DNA of 20,452 bases from a virus: positions 1 through 20,452 of the IMG/VR virus record IMGVR_UViG_3300042451_002263; one strand, 5' to 3'. The translations under genes and the position numbers were made by a program. Position 1 is the first letter of the stretch. Each line of letters begins with the position of its first letter. The notes under the pieces were generated by a model that was not told where the DNA came from, did not search any database, and saw only the letters and a list, made by a program, of their open reading frames with translations. Shown here in pieces: positions 3-6,958 of this stretch.

Positions 3-119
3 CCCGAACCTGCCGCGACGGTTTTCCTGACGCCCATCCAGGCGCGCGAATTGGCGCGGATGGTCCGCAACGCCGCTGACTTCACCGCCGCCATGGAACC
101 CGCACAAGGCAGCGTGTGA
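3..119 (+). CDS. C-terminal end of an unrecognised phage gene (5' partial)
   Basis: An open frame runs in from the left edge and ends at TGA 117-119, giving 38 C-terminal residues that include FLTPIQARELARMV. The TGA shares its last base with the terminase ATG at 119 (TGATG), so the gene belongs to the same operon and is probably translationally coupled to the terminase. In Mu the gene before the large terminase is the gp27-type small terminase (DUF3486), but I do not recognise that family's C-terminus here. The residue composition suggests a short helical tail. The family cannot be assigned from this fragment. Confidence 0.6.
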   Translation, partial: PEPAATVFLTPIQARELARMVRNAADFTAAMEPAQGSV

Positions 120-1705
120 TGGCCGCGAAGAACTCGAAGCCTTCGAGTACGCCCGACATTGATGGCGTGCTGCTGCCATATCAGCGCGACCTGGTGCGCG
201 CGGTGTCCGAGCATGAAGTCACGGTCTATGAAAAATCCCGCCGCATCGGCGCCACCTGGGGGGTGGGCGCGCAAGGCGTGCTGACTGCCGGTGCGGGGCG
301 TGATCAGCGCGGGATGGATGTGCTTTACATCGGCTACAATTTGGATATGGCGCGCGAATTCATTGATGTCTGCGCGATGTGGGCGCGAAGCTTTGGCCTG
401 GCTGCCGGTGAGATTGGTGAATTTCTGTTTCAGGACCAGGAAGAAAAGGGGGTGGAACGGAACATCGCCGCCTTCCGGATCAAGTTTGCATCGGGCTTTG
501 AAATCCTGGCCCTGGCTTCTCGGCCCCGGTCTTTGCGTGGCCGGCAGGGGTTTGTCATCATCGATGAAGCGGCCTTCCATGATGATCTGGCCGAGCTTTT
601 GAAGGCTGCTGTGGCGCTGCTCATTTGGGGTGGGCGCATCCTTCTCGTCAGCACCCATGACGGTGCGGAAAACCCCTTCGCGGAACTAATCAATGATATC
701 CGCGCCGGGCGAAAGCCCTACCACCTGCTGCGCACCACCTTCGATGAAGCCTGCGACCAGGGCCTCTATCGCCGCGTGGCGATGAAATTGGGCGTGCCAT
801 GGACCGCCGAAGGCGAAGCTGCCTGGAAGGCGAAGATCCGCGCCTTCTATGGCGACAGCGCGACCGAGGAATTGGATGTGGTGCCGCGCGCCGGTTCCGG
901 CCGGTATCTGCCGCTGCATTTGATTGAAGCGCGCACCAGCCGCGATATCCCCGTGCTGCGCTACACCTGCGCCGACGCTTTCGTGCATCTGCCAGACCAT
1001 ATCCGCAGCGCCGAGACGCTGCGCTGGTGTGAAGACAATATCCGCCCGCTACTGGATGGGCTGAACCCGCTGCTACGCAGCCTGACCGGAATGGACTTTG
1101 GCCGCTTGGTTGATCTTTCCGTGATCTGGCCCATCCAGATCATGCCGAATTTGATGCGCGCCACGCCCTTCACCATGGAACTTCGCAATGTGCCCTTCGA
1201 ACAGCAGCGCGAAATCCTGTTCTATCTGGGGGATCGGCTACCCCGGCTTTCCGGCCTGGCGCTGGACCGCACCGGCAATGGCGCCTGGCTGGCGGAACGC
1301 ACGATGCAAAGATACGGCGCGCATCGCGTGGAAGGCATTCATCTGACCGAAGGCTGGTACCGCGACCACATGCCGAAATTGAAGGCGGCCTTCCAGGATG
1401 CCAGCTTTGACATTCCCGCAGATGCGCAGGTGGTGGAAGATTTCCGCGCCATTGAATTGGTGAATGGCGTGGCGCGCGTGAGGCAACGCCAGGTCACCGC
1501 GAAAGGCGAAGACCGCGATCCGAATGCAGGCCAGCGCCATGGTGACGCGGCGATTGCCGCCGCCCTGGTGATCTACGCCGCCAGCCGTGACTGGGGCAGC
1601 CTGACCAATTTCCCGATCCCGCGCAGCGACATCATGGCCCTGCCCGATGATGGCAGCATTCTGGGCATGTCGCCGCATGGCGCTGTCGCAACCTATCTTG
1701 GATGA
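119..1705 (+). CDS. Mu-like large terminase subunit (gp28-type ATPase/nuclease)
   Basis: This is the motor that packages phage DNA into the prohead, 528 residues from ATG 119. A GTG at 116 is possible, but ATG overlaps the upstream stop as TGATG. The N-terminal ATPase domain shows the Mu-type variant Walker A KSRRIGATW (about residues 39-47), Walker B FVIIDEAA (145-152, D149/E150) and a coupling motif VSTHDG (177-182). The C-terminal RNase H-like nuclease has three acidic positions: D326 in TGMDFG, D383 in ALDRTGNG and D476 in RHGDAAIA. The domains are complete and the length is normal for the family. In Mu-like phages this enzyme cuts host-flanked phage DNA for headful packaging and docks on the portal encoded two genes downstream. 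ATGA at 1702-1705 gives an overlapping start for the next reading frame. Confidence 0.95.
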   Translation: MAAKNSKPSSTPDIDGVLLPYQRDLVRAVSEHEVTVYEKSRRIGATWGVGAQGVLTAGAGRDQRGMDVLYIGYNLDMAREFIDVCAMWARSFGLAAGEIGEFLFQDQEEKGVERNIAAFRIKFASGFEILALASRPRSLRGRQGFVIIDEAAFHDDLAELLKAAVALLIWGGRILLVSTHDGAENPFAELINDIRAGRKPYHLLRTTFDEACDQGLYRRVAMKLGVPWTAEGEAAWKAKIRAFYGDSATEELDVVPRAGSGRYLPLHLIEARTSRDIPVLRYTCADAFVHLPDHIRSAETLRWCEDNIRPLLDGLNPLLRSLTGMDFGRLVDLSVIWPIQIMPNLMRATPFTMELRNVPFEQQREILFYLGDRLPRLSGLALDRTGNGAWLAERTMQRYGAHRVEGIHLTEGWYRDHMPKLKAAFQDASFDIPADAQVVEDFRAIELVNGVARVRQRQVTAKGEDRDPNAGQRHGDAAIAAALVIYAASRDWGSLTNFPIPRSDIMALPDDGSILGMSPHGAVATYLG

Positions 1706-1716
1706 AAGAACCAGCC

Positions 1717-1941
1717 ATGGAAAACCAGCACCGCAAGATCACCGGCTACCGCGAACTGACTGAGCTTGAAGTCAACGCGATGAACGTGATCAAGGGCCGT
1801 GGTGAGCAGCTTTCGCAGCTGCTCGATGACCTGGCCAACCTGCCCGATGTGGATAAGCGCGCGCTGGCCATCGCGCGCACCGAATTGCAGACCGGCATGA
1901 TGTGGGCAACGCGCGCCGTTGCCCGCCCCACCAGCTTCTGA
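1717..1941 (+). CDS. Acb2/Tad1-type small protein, probable cyclic-nucleotide sponge (anti-CBASS/anti-Thoeris)
   Basis: A 74-residue protein. Its opening HRKITGYRELTELE, a following helix with VIKGRGEQL, and the ending IARTELQTGMMWATRAVARPTSF-like tail resemble the small phage family annotated as Acb2/Tad1 hairpin domain. Members bind the cyclic nucleotide or cyclic ADP-ribose signals of CBASS or Thoeris and block defence without degrading the signal. Numbering from ATG 1717 puts tyrosine at 11 and lysine at 26, the two positions I recall as cGAMP-contacting in Pseudomonas phage PaMx33 Acb2. An in-frame ATG at 1702 overlaps the terminase stop and would add five residues; I prefer 1717 because homologues I recall begin with M-E/D-x-Q-H-R-K. 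It is shorter than T4 or PaMx33 Acb2 (roughly 90+ residues). Family assignment is from memory of sequence pattern; the activity is inferred. Confidence 0.72.
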   Translation: MENQHRKITGYRELTELEVNAMNVIKGRGEQLSQLLDDLANLPDVDKRALAIARTELQTGMMWATRAVARPTSF

Positions 1942-1966
1942 TCACCCGGCCTTCGGAGCATAAACC

Positions 1967-3460
1967 ATGAGCGGCACCCGCCTTCCGCAAGACTTGGCGC
2001 AGGAAGTCGCCACCTTCGAACGCGACATCACCGCCCAATACTACGCGTTCACGATGCGGACGCGCGACGACATCATCCTTTCGCGCGGGGGCAGTAAGGG
2101 CCTTGGCATCTATCAAGACCTGGCGCGGGATGGCCATGCGGGCGCGGTTTTGCGCAAGCGCCGCAATGCCGTGGTGGCGCGCGAATATCAGGTGGAACCA
2201 GGTGGCGAAGCGCCGGCTGATTTGCTGGCGGCGGAACTGGTGAAGGCCGCGCTGAAGCGGATCCGCTTCGACCGTGCCTGCCGTGGTCTGCTGACGGCGG
2301 TGCTGACCGGGATCGCGGTTGCGGAGATAATCTGGGAAGCGGCGGAGATTGAGGTGGATGGCGCGCGCCGCACCTGGATTGTGCCGGCCGATATCCGCGT
2401 GCGGAACCCGCGCCGCTTCGCCTTTGACCGGGACGGCAAGCTGCGGCTGCTGACGCGGGAAAACCGCACCCAGGGCATCCCGGTACCGGACCGCAAATTC
2501 ATCCTGGTGCGCTATTGGGCCGAAGAAAATGAAGACGCCTATGGGCGGGGCCTCGGCTATGATCTTTTCTGGCCGGTGTTTTTCAAGCGCAACGGCGTGG
2601 CGCTTTGGAATGCGCTGATCGAAAAGCACGGCCAGCCCTTCGTCTATGCCGAATACCCGAACGGCACATCGGATGGCGATGTGAACCGCCTGGTGACCAT
2701 GATCCAGGGCATCGCGCGCGGCGCCGGCGTTGCCGTGCCATCCGGCACGCTGATCAAGACGCTGGAGGTGTCCAAAACCGGCTCGGCGGATATGCACAAG
2801 GAATTGGTGCAGGCCATGAATGCCGAGATTTCCAAGATTGTGCTGGGCGAAACGCTGACGACCGAGATGGGCCAGAATGGCGCGCGCGCAGCATCCGAAA
2901 CCCATAATGATGTCCGCACCGAATTGGCCGATGCGGATGCGGATATGCTCTCCGAAGAACTGAATGAGAGCCTGCTTCGGTGGATGGTGGAACTCAATCT
3001 GCCGGGCGCGGCGCAGCCGACGGTGTGGCGCACGGCGCCGGAAGAGCCTGATTTGGTGGCCAGCGCGACGCTGGATGAAAAGCTGTTCAAGGTGGGCTAT
3101 GAGCCGACCGAAGAACTGGTGCTGGAAAGATATGGCCCCGGCTATAGGCGCATCGCGGGCGCCCAGCCTGCCACGCTGCCACCGCCGCCCGCCTTTGCGG
3201 AAGGCGTGGACCCCGCCACCATTCCGGAAGCGCTGGCCGAGCAGCTTGCGCGCCGCGGTGCGCCTGCCCAGGCCGCGATGCTGGCCGCCATCCGGGCCGA
3301 GGTTTCGGCGGCGGTGGATTTCGCTGATCTGGAACTGCGCCTGCTGCGGCTTTCCGCAGCCATGCCGGTGGGCCGCCTGGTGGAAGAACTCACCCCCGCC
3401 TTGATTGTGGGCCACCTGGCCGGGCGCAGCGATGCGCAGGATGAAGCCACGCCGGCATGA
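1967..3460 (+). CDS. portal protein (DUF935, Mu gp29-like)
   Basis: This 497-residue protein forms the dodecameric portal through which DNA enters and leaves the head. Family features are the N-terminal region with ITAQYYAFTMRTRDDII (about 21-37), the WAEENEDAYGRGLGYDLFWP segment (184-203), which is typical of DUF935, and the predicted stem helix region EISKIVLGETLTTE (287-300) followed by acidic helices (315-340). The C-terminal third is alanine/proline-rich, as usual. ATG 1967 is preceded by GGAG at 1956-1959. The gene follows the Acb2-like gene by 25 bp and overlaps the next gene by ATGA at 3457-3460. The length is normal, with no sign of truncation. Confidence 0.94.
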   Translation: MSGTRLPQDLAQEVATFERDITAQYYAFTMRTRDDIILSRGGSKGLGIYQDLARDGHAGAVLRKRRNAVVAREYQVEPGGEAPADLLAAELVKAALKRIRFDRACRGLLTAVLTGIAVAEIIWEAAEIEVDGARRTWIVPADIRVRNPRRFAFDRDGKLRLLTRENRTQGIPVPDRKFILVRYWAEENEDAYGRGLGYDLFWPVFFKRNGVALWNALIEKHGQPFVYAEYPNGTSDGDVNRLVTMIQGIARGAGVAVPSGTLIKTLEVSKTGSADMHKELVQAMNAEISKIVLGETLTTEMGQNGARAASETHNDVRTELADADADMLSEELNESLLRWMVELNLPGAAQPTVWRTAPEEPDLVASATLDEKLFKVGYEPTEELVLERYGPGYRRIAGAQPATLPPPPAFAEGVDPATIPEALAEQLARRGAPAQAAMLAAIRAEVSAAVDFADLELRLLRLSAAMPVGRLVEELTPALIVGHLAGRSDAQDEATPA

Positions 3461-4710
3461 GCGGCAGCCTTGATGCGCTGAACCTGCCGCCGGAAGAAGC
3501 CATCCGCTTCTTCAGGGCGAAGGTGAATACGCCAACCCGCGCCTGGGATGATCTGCGCCACGGCGCCCATGCCCGCGCCTGGTCAGTGGCCGGTGTGCAG
3601 GCGGATGACATGCTGGCCGATATCCGCCGCGCCATGGATAAGGCGATTGCGCAGGGCACCACACTGGATGAATTCCGCCGCGATATCGCCCCCCTATTGG
3701 GCGAGCTTGGCTGGGCAGATCGCGGGCCTGGTTATGTCGGCTGGCGGACCCGCGTGATCTATGAGACCAACATGCGCACCGCCTATGCCGCTGGCCGCTA
3801 CGCGCAGATGACGGACCCGGATGTGCTGGCGGCGCGGCCCTTCTGGCGCTACCGCCACAGCGGCAAGCGCGATGCGCGCAAGCAGCATAAGGCGTGGGAT
3901 GGCCTGGTGCTGCGCGCGGATGATCCTTTCTGGCAAAGCCACTACCCGCCGAATGGCTGGGGCTGCGGCTGCTATGTGCAATCGCTCGGCCCGCGAGACC
4001 TGGCGCGCGCTGGCAAAGCCGGCCCGGATGAAGCACCGCCTGCGGGGACCAGGCCGTATCGAGACCCGACCACCGGAGAGATTTCCGCACTGCCTGCGGG
4101 CATTGATCCGGGGTGGGGCTATAATGTCGGCGCAAGCTGGACGCAGGGTGTGGTGCCGCCGCCGCTGGCGGAACCGCTTCAGCCTTATCGTGGTGGTGGC
4201 CTGCGGCCTTCAGGCCAGCGCCCTGGTGATCTGCCAGCCATGCCATCTGCGCGGCCTTCCAGCGCAATCACAGCGCCGGAAGGTAAAGACCCAAACACTG
4301 CGATTGAAGAATTCTTGGGTGAATTTGGCGCGACCCGAGACCGCCCCGCTGTGTTCCGCGATGTGTCCGGTACACGGATTGTGATCAGCCGCGATCTGTT
4401 CCTGGCTGCCGATGGCAGCATCAAAAGTGATGAGCAGCGCTTTCGGTATCTGGCGCGGCTTGCGGAAGCCCTCAAAGACCCGGATGAGATTTGGGTGGAT
4501 TGGTGCGAAACCGTCGCCGGCGGCATTCACCTGCGCCGGCGCTATCTGCGCCGCTTCGTGGGCGCGGCGTCAGGACTCGCGGTGCTGGAATGGACCGATG
4601 CCGGATGGTTCGGCGCGACCCTGATGTTGGCGCGCGCGGCGAGCTATCTGGAAAAACAGAGGTCAGGCGCCTTGATCTACGCCCGGCCTGAGAATGGGGA
4701 AGGAAGATGA
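3457..4710 (+). CDS. minor head protein F (MuF/SPP1 gp7-like) with C-terminal PBECR2-like nuclease domain
   Basis: A 417-residue, two-domain protein. Residues 50-175 carry the MuF domain: TRVIYETNMRTAYAAGRYAQM (98-118), the WRYRHSGKRDARKQHKAWDGL block (130-150) and PPNGWGCGCYV (164-174). This domain binds portal or capsid in the head. A proline/glycine-rich linker (about 185-275) leads to a C-terminal domain (280-417) with DEIWVDW (343-349), RRRYLRRF (360-367), EWTDAGWFGATL (378-389) and LEKQRSGALIYAR (398-410). That pattern fits the PBECR2 domain (phage Barnase-EndoU-ColicinE5/D-RelE-like nuclease), which recurs as a fusion to MuF proteins. Such fusions are thought to be toxins packaged in the head and injected; that role is inference here. 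The linker and start of the second domain (about 4260-4450) look less GC-biased than the rest. It starts by ATGA overlap with the portal stop. Confidence 0.9.
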   Translation: MSGSLDALNLPPEEAIRFFRAKVNTPTRAWDDLRHGAHARAWSVAGVQADDMLADIRRAMDKAIAQGTTLDEFRRDIAPLLGELGWADRGPGYVGWRTRVIYETNMRTAYAAGRYAQMTDPDVLAARPFWRYRHSGKRDARKQHKAWDGLVLRADDPFWQSHYPPNGWGCGCYVQSLGPRDLARAGKAGPDEAPPAGTRPYRDPTTGEISALPAGIDPGWGYNVGASWTQGVVPPPLAEPLQPYRGGGLRPSGQRPGDLPAMPSARPSSAITAPEGKDPNTAIEEFLGEFGATRDRPAVFRDVSGTRIVISRDLFLAADGSIKSDEQRFRYLARLAEALKDPDEIWVDWCETVAGGIHLRRRYLRRFVGAASGLAVLEWTDAGWFGATLMLARAASYLEKQRSGALIYARPENGEGR

Positions 4711-4829: not shown

Positions 4830-5078
4830 ATGAAACTACTCCGCCCCCTACTCCGCCGCCTCGGTTATGCGCTGATCCCGGTCAATGCCGTGGACTACGT
4901 GGAGATCCGCATCGCAGTGTGGGCGGCGCAATACAGCTACGCCGCCGATAGGATGGGCCTGAAAAATCCGGAAGCCATCGCCAACCATGCAGTCATTCGC
5001 GCGCTGGACCCCGTGCAGGCGGAAAGCGACAAGCGCGCCTTCGCGGCATTACTCGCAGCCGTAGAGGAGCATCTGTAA
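4830..5078 (+). CDS. hypothetical 82-residue protein between MuF and gpG
   Basis: An unrecognised protein from ATG 4830, chosen because AAGGAAA sits 6 nt upstream; a TTG-start extension to 4758 has no ribosome binding site. The first 20 residues are basic and hydrophobic (MKLLRPLLRRLGYALIPV), possibly an amphipathic helix that contacts membrane or protein. The remainder, containing IRIAVWAAQYSY and an alanine-rich helix ending in AALLAAVEEHL, is predicted helical. There is no signal-peptidase site and no cysteine. It ends 2 bp before gpG, whose ribosome binding site GAGGAG (5064-5069) lies inside this gene, so the two are coupled. It could be an accessory morphogenesis factor. Because it directly follows a MuF-nuclease fusion, it could alternatively be an immunity protein; no sequence motif decides between them. 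Confidence 0.7.
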   Translation: MKLLRPLLRRLGYALIPVNAVDYVEIRIAVWAAQYSYAADRMGLKNPEAIANHAVIRALDPVQAESDKRAFAALLAAVEEHL

Positions 5079-5080
5079 TC

Positions 5081-5581
5081 ATGACCGGCGTGCGCATCAC
5101 CATCAACACCGCCGAATTCCGCGATGCCCTCCAGGGCCTTTCCGCGATCATGCGCCGCCCGCAGGCGGTGATGGGCGAAATTGGCGAAGCCATGATCCTT
5201 TCCACCCAGGAACGCGCGGCGGCGGAACAATCGCCGGATGGCGTGGCTTGGCCAAAGCTGAACCCTGGCTATGCGGCGGCAAAGCGCGGCGGTTCAATGT
5301 TGCGTGAAACCGGGCGGCTGCTGGGTAGCCTTTCACGCAAGGTTGATGGCAACCGCGTGGTGGTCGGCACCAATGTGATCTATGCCGCCATCCATCAATT
5401 CGGCGGCACCATTCGCCCGAAGTCGGGCGGGCGGTTGGCCTTCCGGCTGGGGCGCACGCGTGTTTTCGCGCGCAGCGTCAGCATCCCCGCGCGGCCATGG
5501 CTTGGCGTTTCGGCTGCGGACCGGGCCGAGATCATGGCGATCTTTCAGGACCACGCGCGGCGCGCGATGCGCGGCGCGTGA
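5081..5581 (+). CDS. virion morphogenesis protein (Mu gpG/gp31-like)
   Basis: A 166-residue protein of the phage virion morphogenesis family (Mu G, P2 gpS-like), which acts in tail completion and head-tail joining. Family marks are the N-terminal helix region (10-45), AWPKLNPGYAAAKRGG (56-71, the 'W-x-x-L...Y-x-x-x-K' element), RETGRLLGSL (75-84), VGTNVIYAAIHQFGGTI (95-111) and the near C-terminal IPARPWLGVS (135-144). All are in the expected order. ATG 5081 has a strong upstream GAGGAG. The length is normal. Its stop TGA (5579-5581) overlaps a GTG that could start a tiny reading frame, after which comes a structured spacer. Confidence 0.92.
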   Translation: MTGVRITINTAEFRDALQGLSAIMRRPQAVMGEIGEAMILSTQERAAAEQSPDGVAWPKLNPGYAAAKRGGSMLRETGRLLGSLSRKVDGNRVVVGTNVIYAAIHQFGGTIRPKSGGRLAFRLGRTRVFARSVSIPARPWLGVSAADRAEIMAIFQDHARRAMRGA

Positions 5582-5797: not shown

Positions 5798-6958
5798 ATG
5801 AAGCAGCTCCATATCTTCCGCGCCGGCATTCACCAGCCCATGCAGGGCGGTGCGCTGGAATTTCGAGAGGCCGATCTGGCCGCGACTGCCGCTGCCTATG
5901 ATCCAGCCTTCGGCGAAGCGCCGTTGGTGGTGGGTCATCCGAAAACCGATGCGCCGGCCTATGGCTGGGTGCGCGCTTTGCGTGCCGAAGGTGGCGACCT
6001 GGTCGCGGAACCGCATCAGGTGGAACCGGCCTTTGCTGAAATGGTGCAGGCGGGCCGCTTCAAGAAAATCAGCGCGTCCTTCTACACGCCGAACCATCCA
6101 TCCAATCCGAAGCCCGGCGCCTTCTATCTGAAGCATGTCGGCTTTTTGGGTGCTGCCGCGCCAGCCGTGAAGGGCCTGCGCGATGTCGCCTTCGCTGCCG
6201 ATGAGGCGGATGTGGTGACGCTGGAATTCGCTGCCGATGGCGCTGCTGTCAGCCCATGGCGCATGTCCATGATGCTTTCCGATATCGGCGGGCTGTTCCG
6301 TGGGCTGCGCGATTGGATTGTGGCGAAGGAAGGCCTTGAGGTGGCCGATAAAATTCTGCCCTCGCAGCCCGTGCAACGCATGACGGATGAGTTGGCGCGT
6401 TTGGAAGGGCAGGCCGAAGGCGCCCGCGCCGCCGCCGTTCCGCCCCCCGCTTTTGCCGACGACAATCAACAGGAGACTGTGACAGTGCCGACTGAAAAAA
6501 CGGATGATGCGGATCGCATCGCCGCGCTTGAAGCGCGCGAACGCGATTTGAAAGCGCGCGAAGCCGCCTTTGCCGAAGCGGATGCCGCGCGGCGCGCTGC
6601 TGAAATGGCGGCCTTCACCGAGAAATTGGTGAGCGAGGCGCGCATCCCGCAAGGGGTGGTGCCGCGCATCCTGGCCTTTGCCGCCAGCCTGCCCGCCACT
6701 GGTGAGATTTGCTTCACCGAAGGCGATGCCACCGTGCGCGAAGCGCCGCTGGATGCCTTCCGTGCCGTTCTATCCGCGCTGCCCGCGCGTGTGGAATTCC
6801 GCGAAGTGGCGCCTGCCGGCCAGGTTGAATTCGCCGCTGATGATCCCATGGCCATCGCTTCCGCCGCCCAGGCCTATCAGGCCGAACGCGCGGCGGCGGG
6901 CCAAAGCGTTTCAATGGCAGCCGCCGTTGAGCATGTCACGAACAGGAGGTCTGCGTGA
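5798..6958 (+). CDS. prohead protease with C-terminal scaffold region (Mu gpI/gp32-like)
   Basis: A 386-residue protein from ATG 5798 (a GTG at 5795 is adjacent; TAAGG at 5788-5792 fits ATG better). The N-terminal half matches Mu-like I protein: LVVGHPKTDAPAYGWVRAL (43-61), ISASFYTP (91-98) and FYLKHVGFLGAAAPAVKGL (109-127). H47, S92/S94 and H113 are candidate catalytic residues by analogy with other prohead proteases. An alanine/proline linker (about 205-225) leads to a charged, coiled-coil-like stretch (235-280, EARERDLKAREAAFAEADAA) and the scaffold region. In Mu the protease cleaves scaffold and itself during head maturation, and the scaffold Z is made from an internal start in the same frame; the same arrangement is seen here. 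The stop overlaps the GTG of the next gene. Confidence 0.9.
   Translation: MKQLHIFRAGIHQPMQGGALEFREADLAATAAAYDPAFGEAPLVVGHPKTDAPAYGWVRALRAEGGDLVAEPHQVEPAFAEMVQAGRFKKISASFYTPNHPSNPKPGAFYLKHVGFLGAAAPAVKGLRDVAFAADEADVVTLEFAADGAAVSPWRMSMMLSDIGGLFRGLRDWIVAKEGLEVADKILPSQPVQRMTDELARLEGQAEGARAAAVPPPAFADDNQQETVTVPTEKTDDADRIAALEARERDLKAREAAFAEADAARRAAEMAAFTEKLVSEARIPQGVVPRILAFAASLPATGEICFTEGDATVREAPLDAFRAVLSALPARVEFREVAPAGQVEFAADDPMAIASAAQAYQAERAAAGQSVSMAAAVEHVTNRRSA
6471..6487 (+). promoter_or_regulatory. internal ribosome binding site and GTG start for scaffold
   Basis: Within the protease frame, AGGAG at 6471-6475 is followed by two in-frame GTG codons at 6479 and 6485. The second lies 9 nt from the AGGAG, a good spacing; the first is too close (3 nt). 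The site falls at the junction between the alanine/proline-rich linker and the coiled-coil region, where the Mu scaffold Z begins inside I. Confidence 0.6.
6485..6958 (+). CDS. head scaffold protein, internal in-frame product of the protease gene (Mu Z-like)
   Basis: This predicted product comprises residues 230-386 of the protease frame, 157 residues, starting at GTG 6485 behind AGGAG. It opens with a long charged helix (IAALEARERDLKAREAAF and onward, about 40 residues) suited to a coiled-coil scaffold, followed by a compact C-terminal part that would contact capsid subunits. The major capsid protein lacks an obvious fused delta domain, so a separate scaffold is expected. Known for Mu: Z is made from an in-frame internal start of I. 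Its existence here is inferred from the ribosome binding site and domain boundary. Confidence 0.6.
   Translation: MPTEKTDDADRIAALEARERDLKAREAAFAEADAARRAAEMAAFTEKLVSEARIPQGVVPRILAFAASLPATGEICFTEGDATVREAPLDAFRAVLSALPARVEFREVAPAGQVEFAADDPMAIASAAQAYQAERAAAGQSVSMAAAVEHVTNRRSA

Follow-up and report, generated by a model that had tools for sequence, protein, structure and literature searches.

The window analysed here is a whole viral record of 20,452 bases that carries the head and tail module of a Mu-like myophage. A gene of 74 codons, termed acb2 below, is the single open reading frame that separates the terminase large subunit (TerL) from the portal gene (table 1), as the first-pass annotation had placed it. 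TerL aligns with the terminases of Mu, D108 and JBD25 at 40% identity, with about 95% of the query covered (tblastn), and the other genes of the window include those for a Mu gpF-like protein, a gpG-like virion morphogenesis protein, the capsid and the tail sheath. In the translated acb2 frame, the two motifs that drew attention to the protein, HRKITGYRELTE and IARTELQTG, lie at residues 5–16 and 52–60. An in-frame ATG at 1702 offers an alternative start that would add five residues; the start listed in table 1 is the likely one, because almost every homologue begins at the methionine of an M(E/D)NQH motif.

Table 1. Genes and spacers at the TerL–portal junction of the window.
Feature	Coordinates	Strand	Description and basis
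Terminase large subunit (TerL), Mu gp28-like	116..1705	+	upstream flank of insertion point; PF03237 at threshold
Spacer, 11 nt, after TerL stop	1706..1716	+	read from sequence, assigned by eye
acb2-like gene, 74 aa	1717..1941	+	Acb2/Tad1 hairpin domain at residues 10–70
Spacer, 25 nt (CTTCGGAGC), after acb2	1942..1966	+	junction comparison, 8 filled and 17 empty contigs
Mu-type portal protein	1967..3460	+	downstream flank of insertion point; PF06074 Portal_Mu, E = 4.3e-100

The spacer in front of acb2 is likely to hold the ribosome-binding site of the gene, judging by a purine-rich GAAAGAA that starts inside the TerL stop codon, and the longer spacer behind it likely serves as the ribosome-binding site of the portal gene. 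The latter is missing in phages that lack acb2, where the junction between the TerL stop and the portal gene is different and short. No promoter-like site was found around acb2 between positions 1400 and 2300, so the gene should be read with the operon.

The first-pass annotation had also remarked on the position of such a gene within a packaging operon. This position is real in the window but not unusual: in Pseudomonas phage JBD67 (Beetrevirus), gp34, a 108-aa protein with the same Pfam domain (PF24729), is encoded between the major head protein and the head–tail adaptor, and phage Ps60 is alike, so that an unprecedented location is ruled out. Other Mu-like phages have acb2 in front of TerL, in the interval from portal to gpF, or behind the capsid gene. 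Two Mu-like contigs (L009 and L010, both at 6001–6222) carry homologues upstream of TerL that start with GTG (VDNQHR...) and are 65–68% identical.

Two observations were made further along the head module. The gpF-like minor head protein (3457–4710) has a C-terminal PBECR2 domain (PF18810, E = 2.4e-29) after Phage_Mu_F; PBECR2 is a phage-barnase-EndoU-colicin/RelE-like nuclease, and this arrangement of domains suggests that the protein may be a head-borne nuclease. Between gpF and gpG (about 4830–5078) lies a second variable slot, with a protein of approximately 82 residues (MKLLRPLLRRLGYALIPVNAVDYV...) that has no Pfam match. Most relatives have this protein; contig L130 lacks it (18-nt gap, 5357–5375), and in contigs L004, L006 and L007 it is accompanied by an extra membrane-like ORF of 83–84 residues.

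Family, length and pocket residues

Proteins of the Acb2 family sequester the alarm molecules of bacteria. A profile search, which had been set beforehand as a check on the proposed Acb2/Tad1 identity, gave a significant match to the Acb2/Tad1 hairpin family PF24729 (E = 2.4e-19), covering the full model (1–58) with 69.7 bits, 43 bits above the curated cut-off of 27, too strong a resemblance to be fortuitous. Phmmer searches of the PDB recovered the solved Acb2 protein p26 (8h2j, 6e-14; 8ixz) and Vs.4 of phage T4 (7uq2, 0.0017), and a profile built from 59 homologues retrieved 8h2j, 8ixz and 7uq2 at 2e-31, 5e-30 and 6e-9, respectively, and no others. Three PHROG families (717, 29522 and 1454), all of unannotated function, also matched; PADLOC returned no match for the protein and NCBIfam no credible one. 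The AlphaFold model of the monomer is a two-helix hairpin (helices 16–40 and 47–69, mean pLDDT 90.4) with residues 1–15 as coil, of low confidence over residues 1–10; the short N-terminal helix was not predicted. Foldseek placed Acb2 first among PDB folds (8h2x/8h2j, probability 1.00, TM 0.75; E = 5.9e-5 for 8h2x), followed by Vs.4 (7uq2, 1.8e-3), and the moderate TM-scores probably reflect the longer hairpins of the solved proteins. Profile, sequence and fold comparison agree, and establish that the 74-residue protein belongs to the Acb2 family.

The residues expected of a binding pocket are in place. Y11 and K26 of the window protein align without gaps with Y11 and K26 of 8h2j, as the first-pass annotation had it, and the pair is kept in 62 and 61, respectively, of 62 non-redundant homologues (<80% identity). 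K26 is presumably a critical position in PaMx33 Acb2. Besides Y11, the residues G10, R12, N23, R48, M62, R66 and P71 are invariant in all 62 representatives. Conservation is concentrated at both ends of the protein, which is where the dinucleotide pockets of Acb2 have been placed (PMC12043709). For T4 Acb2, the Panoptes study reported that binding of cyclic dinucleotides is disrupted in a Y8A mutant, and that F82 makes a stacking contact with the base (PMC12657218); Y8 aligns with Y11 of the window protein and F82 with A69, a position that is also alanine in 8h2j.

The protein is indeed shorter than the solved proteins (89–93 aa), as had been remarked, but it is not short for the family: homologues are between 72 and 117 aa long, with 74 aa as the most frequent length (29 of 62 non-redundant sequences), in a set that was recruited with the window protein as query and whose length count is thus biased toward its kin. 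Full-length GenBank matches spanning exactly 74 codons occur in T4-like, jumbo and other phages. The length difference among homologues falls almost wholly at the hairpin tip. An unusual compact form at 74 aa is ruled out by this modal length, and the suggestion of a compact sponge with a different ligand range draws no support from length, since short hairpin tips are common.

Presence and absence of acb2 in related phages

The neighbours of acb2 were surveyed in related phages, as had been proposed. The order TerL–acb2–portal recurs in seven contigs besides the window, and acb2 is missing from 17 related contigs identified by a portal search, several of them near-identical to each other, in which TerL and portal lie at most 16 nt apart, stop codon included. 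Most of these contigs are 84–96% identical to the window in their TerL and portal DNA. Between the common filled and the common empty junction the net difference is 252 bp, to which the gene contributes 225 bp and spacer the other 27 bp. In a tree built from the final 1.5 kb of TerL, the distribution of acb2 needs at least four gains or losses, three of them forced by supported branches, and the closest TerL relative of the window, its sister L132 (support 97/98), is acb2-empty. Recombination across the junction could be an alternative source of this pattern. No other PF24729 gene was found in eight empty relatives, a set that includes records of 37–39 kb and several fragments. We conclude that acb2 is optional cargo at the TerL–portal spot among near-identical phages.

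The gene is under purifying selection. Among the eight acb2 copies, dN/dS is 0.06–0.22 in most pairs with enough changes, so the protein is maintained where it is present.

A Roseomonas metagenome-assembled genome (L082, JADCEX010000084.1, 6421–14585) contains a closely related prophage that shares this gene order and points to Roseomonas-type bacteria as the probable host group; its Acb2 protein is 96% identical to that of the window. Of 35 genomes from the Roseomonas genus group, three have CBASS-type SMODS nucleotidyltransferases that score above the cut-off, which makes an anti-CBASS role plausibly relevant to the host. The MAG with the near-identical prophage, which may be incomplete, gave no SMODS match.

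A predicted sponge and its alternatives

We consider it highly probable that the product of acb2 is a sponge for cyclic nucleotides, of the Acb2 type, and that the gene is optional cargo within the head operon of a transposable, Mu-like myophage that infects Roseomonas-type bacteria. An Acb2 hexamer has three sites for dinucleotides and two for trinucleotides. By homology, the two-helix protomers of the window protein would assemble into such a hexamer and bind the CBASS signal nucleotides (cyclic di- and trinucleotides), in pockets at the two conserved termini, N and C. Sequestration would keep the host effector from being activated during the lytic phase. With no detectable promoter of its own, acb2 would be translated from a late polycistronic mRNA together with terminase and portal. 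Expression in the lytic phase would fit the report that Acb2 is active on induction and not in the maintained lysogen (PMC12043709).

Pfam defines a hairpin domain common to Tad1 and the window protein, and the first-pass annotation had used both names; the Acb2 part of that label stands and the Tad1 part does not. Tad1 has an N-terminal beta-sheet region whose loops help to build the gcADPR pocket (PMC12043709). The window protein consists of the hairpin and a 15-residue N-terminus, with two helices and no strands predicted, and because the N-terminal sheet (b1–b4) is missing, membership of Tad1 is ruled out and the protein is assigned to the Acb2 type. An anti-Thoeris sponge for gcADPR of the Tad1 type is thus very unlikely. 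A structural or packaging role, in which a head accessory protein or TerL–portal adaptor has the hairpin fold by chance, would suit a gene that sits between terminase and portal and lacks a promoter. However, the 17 related contigs with adjacent TerL and portal genes do without acb2, its homologues are found at many other positions and in unrelated phages (T4-like, jumbo and siphoviruses), and the pocket residues are conserved, so we regard such a role as extremely unlikely.

A subtler alternative keeps the fold and family but has an aromatic swap shift the window clade to another ligand set, for example one in which trinucleotides bind less tightly. At position 49, which adjoins the invariant R48, most of the family has W and the window clade A; at position 63 most members have A and the window clade W, a 63-W pattern shared by T4 Vs.4. 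Among the 62 representatives, an aromatic residue is found at 49 only in 43, at 63 only in 14, at both in three and at neither in two; exactly one is thus aromatic in 57 (Fisher p = 2.5e-9; p = 3e-5 at 65% redundancy). Shared ancestry may nevertheless account for this anticorrelation, as on the tree the swap needs approximately five changes, of which one is forced by supported branches, and the independent pairs are too few to give a test any power; moreover, the window clade keeps Y11, K26 and R48. Drift to a different ligand set is therefore unlikely, and the alignment only hints at the swap as a possible marker of an Acb2 subtype. The two positions are 14 residues apart on one helix.

The preferred reading, an Acb2-type sponge as optional cargo, leaves the picture of the family unchanged, with the window protein as an ordinary member; the new part is evolutionary and consists in the clean presence and absence at one site. 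It can be taken further: the TerL–portal junction of Roseomonas-type Mu-like phages might be a swap site at which opposing selective pressures lead to repeated gain and loss of a promoterless, late-expressed sponge, with CBASS favouring it and Panoptes-like guards acting against it, and the change of W49 to A and A63 to W might mark a subtype with altered trinucleotide binding. This combined proposal we judge quite improbable. The phages nonetheless form a natural set of close relatives with and without acb2 at one position, in which selection for or against a sponge could be studied; a trade-off of this kind has been described for the sponge of T4 in the Panoptes work (PMC12657218). They also extend Acb2 to Mu-like phages of alphaproteobacteria.

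Compared with known systems, the window protein is close to Acb2 of Pseudomonas phage PaP2/PaMx33 (8h2j, p26, 93 aa in the PDB chain), with which it shares the domain, the tyrosine and lysine of the pocket, the absence of any extra domain and the N- and C-terminal motifs NQH.KI.GYR.L and LAI..T..QTGMM...RA.A.P.SF. Its hairpin tip is 19 residues shorter, however, and it has A rather than W at 49, beside the conserved Arg, and W rather than A at 63. JBD67 gp34, from a transposable Pseudomonas phage, is likewise a PF24729 member inside a Mu/B3-like head gene module, but is longer and lies outside the TerL–portal interval. T4 Vs.4 (Acb2, 7uq2) has the same fold, the equivalent tyrosine and a W at the equivalent of position 63, whereas its identity is about 30%, it has F82 in place of A69 and its gene belongs to a T4-like phage and is not part of a Mu-type head module. 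Tad1 has the two-helix hairpin in common with the window protein, by Pfam's definition, and is set apart by the N-terminal beta-sheet region that contributes to its gcADPR pocket.
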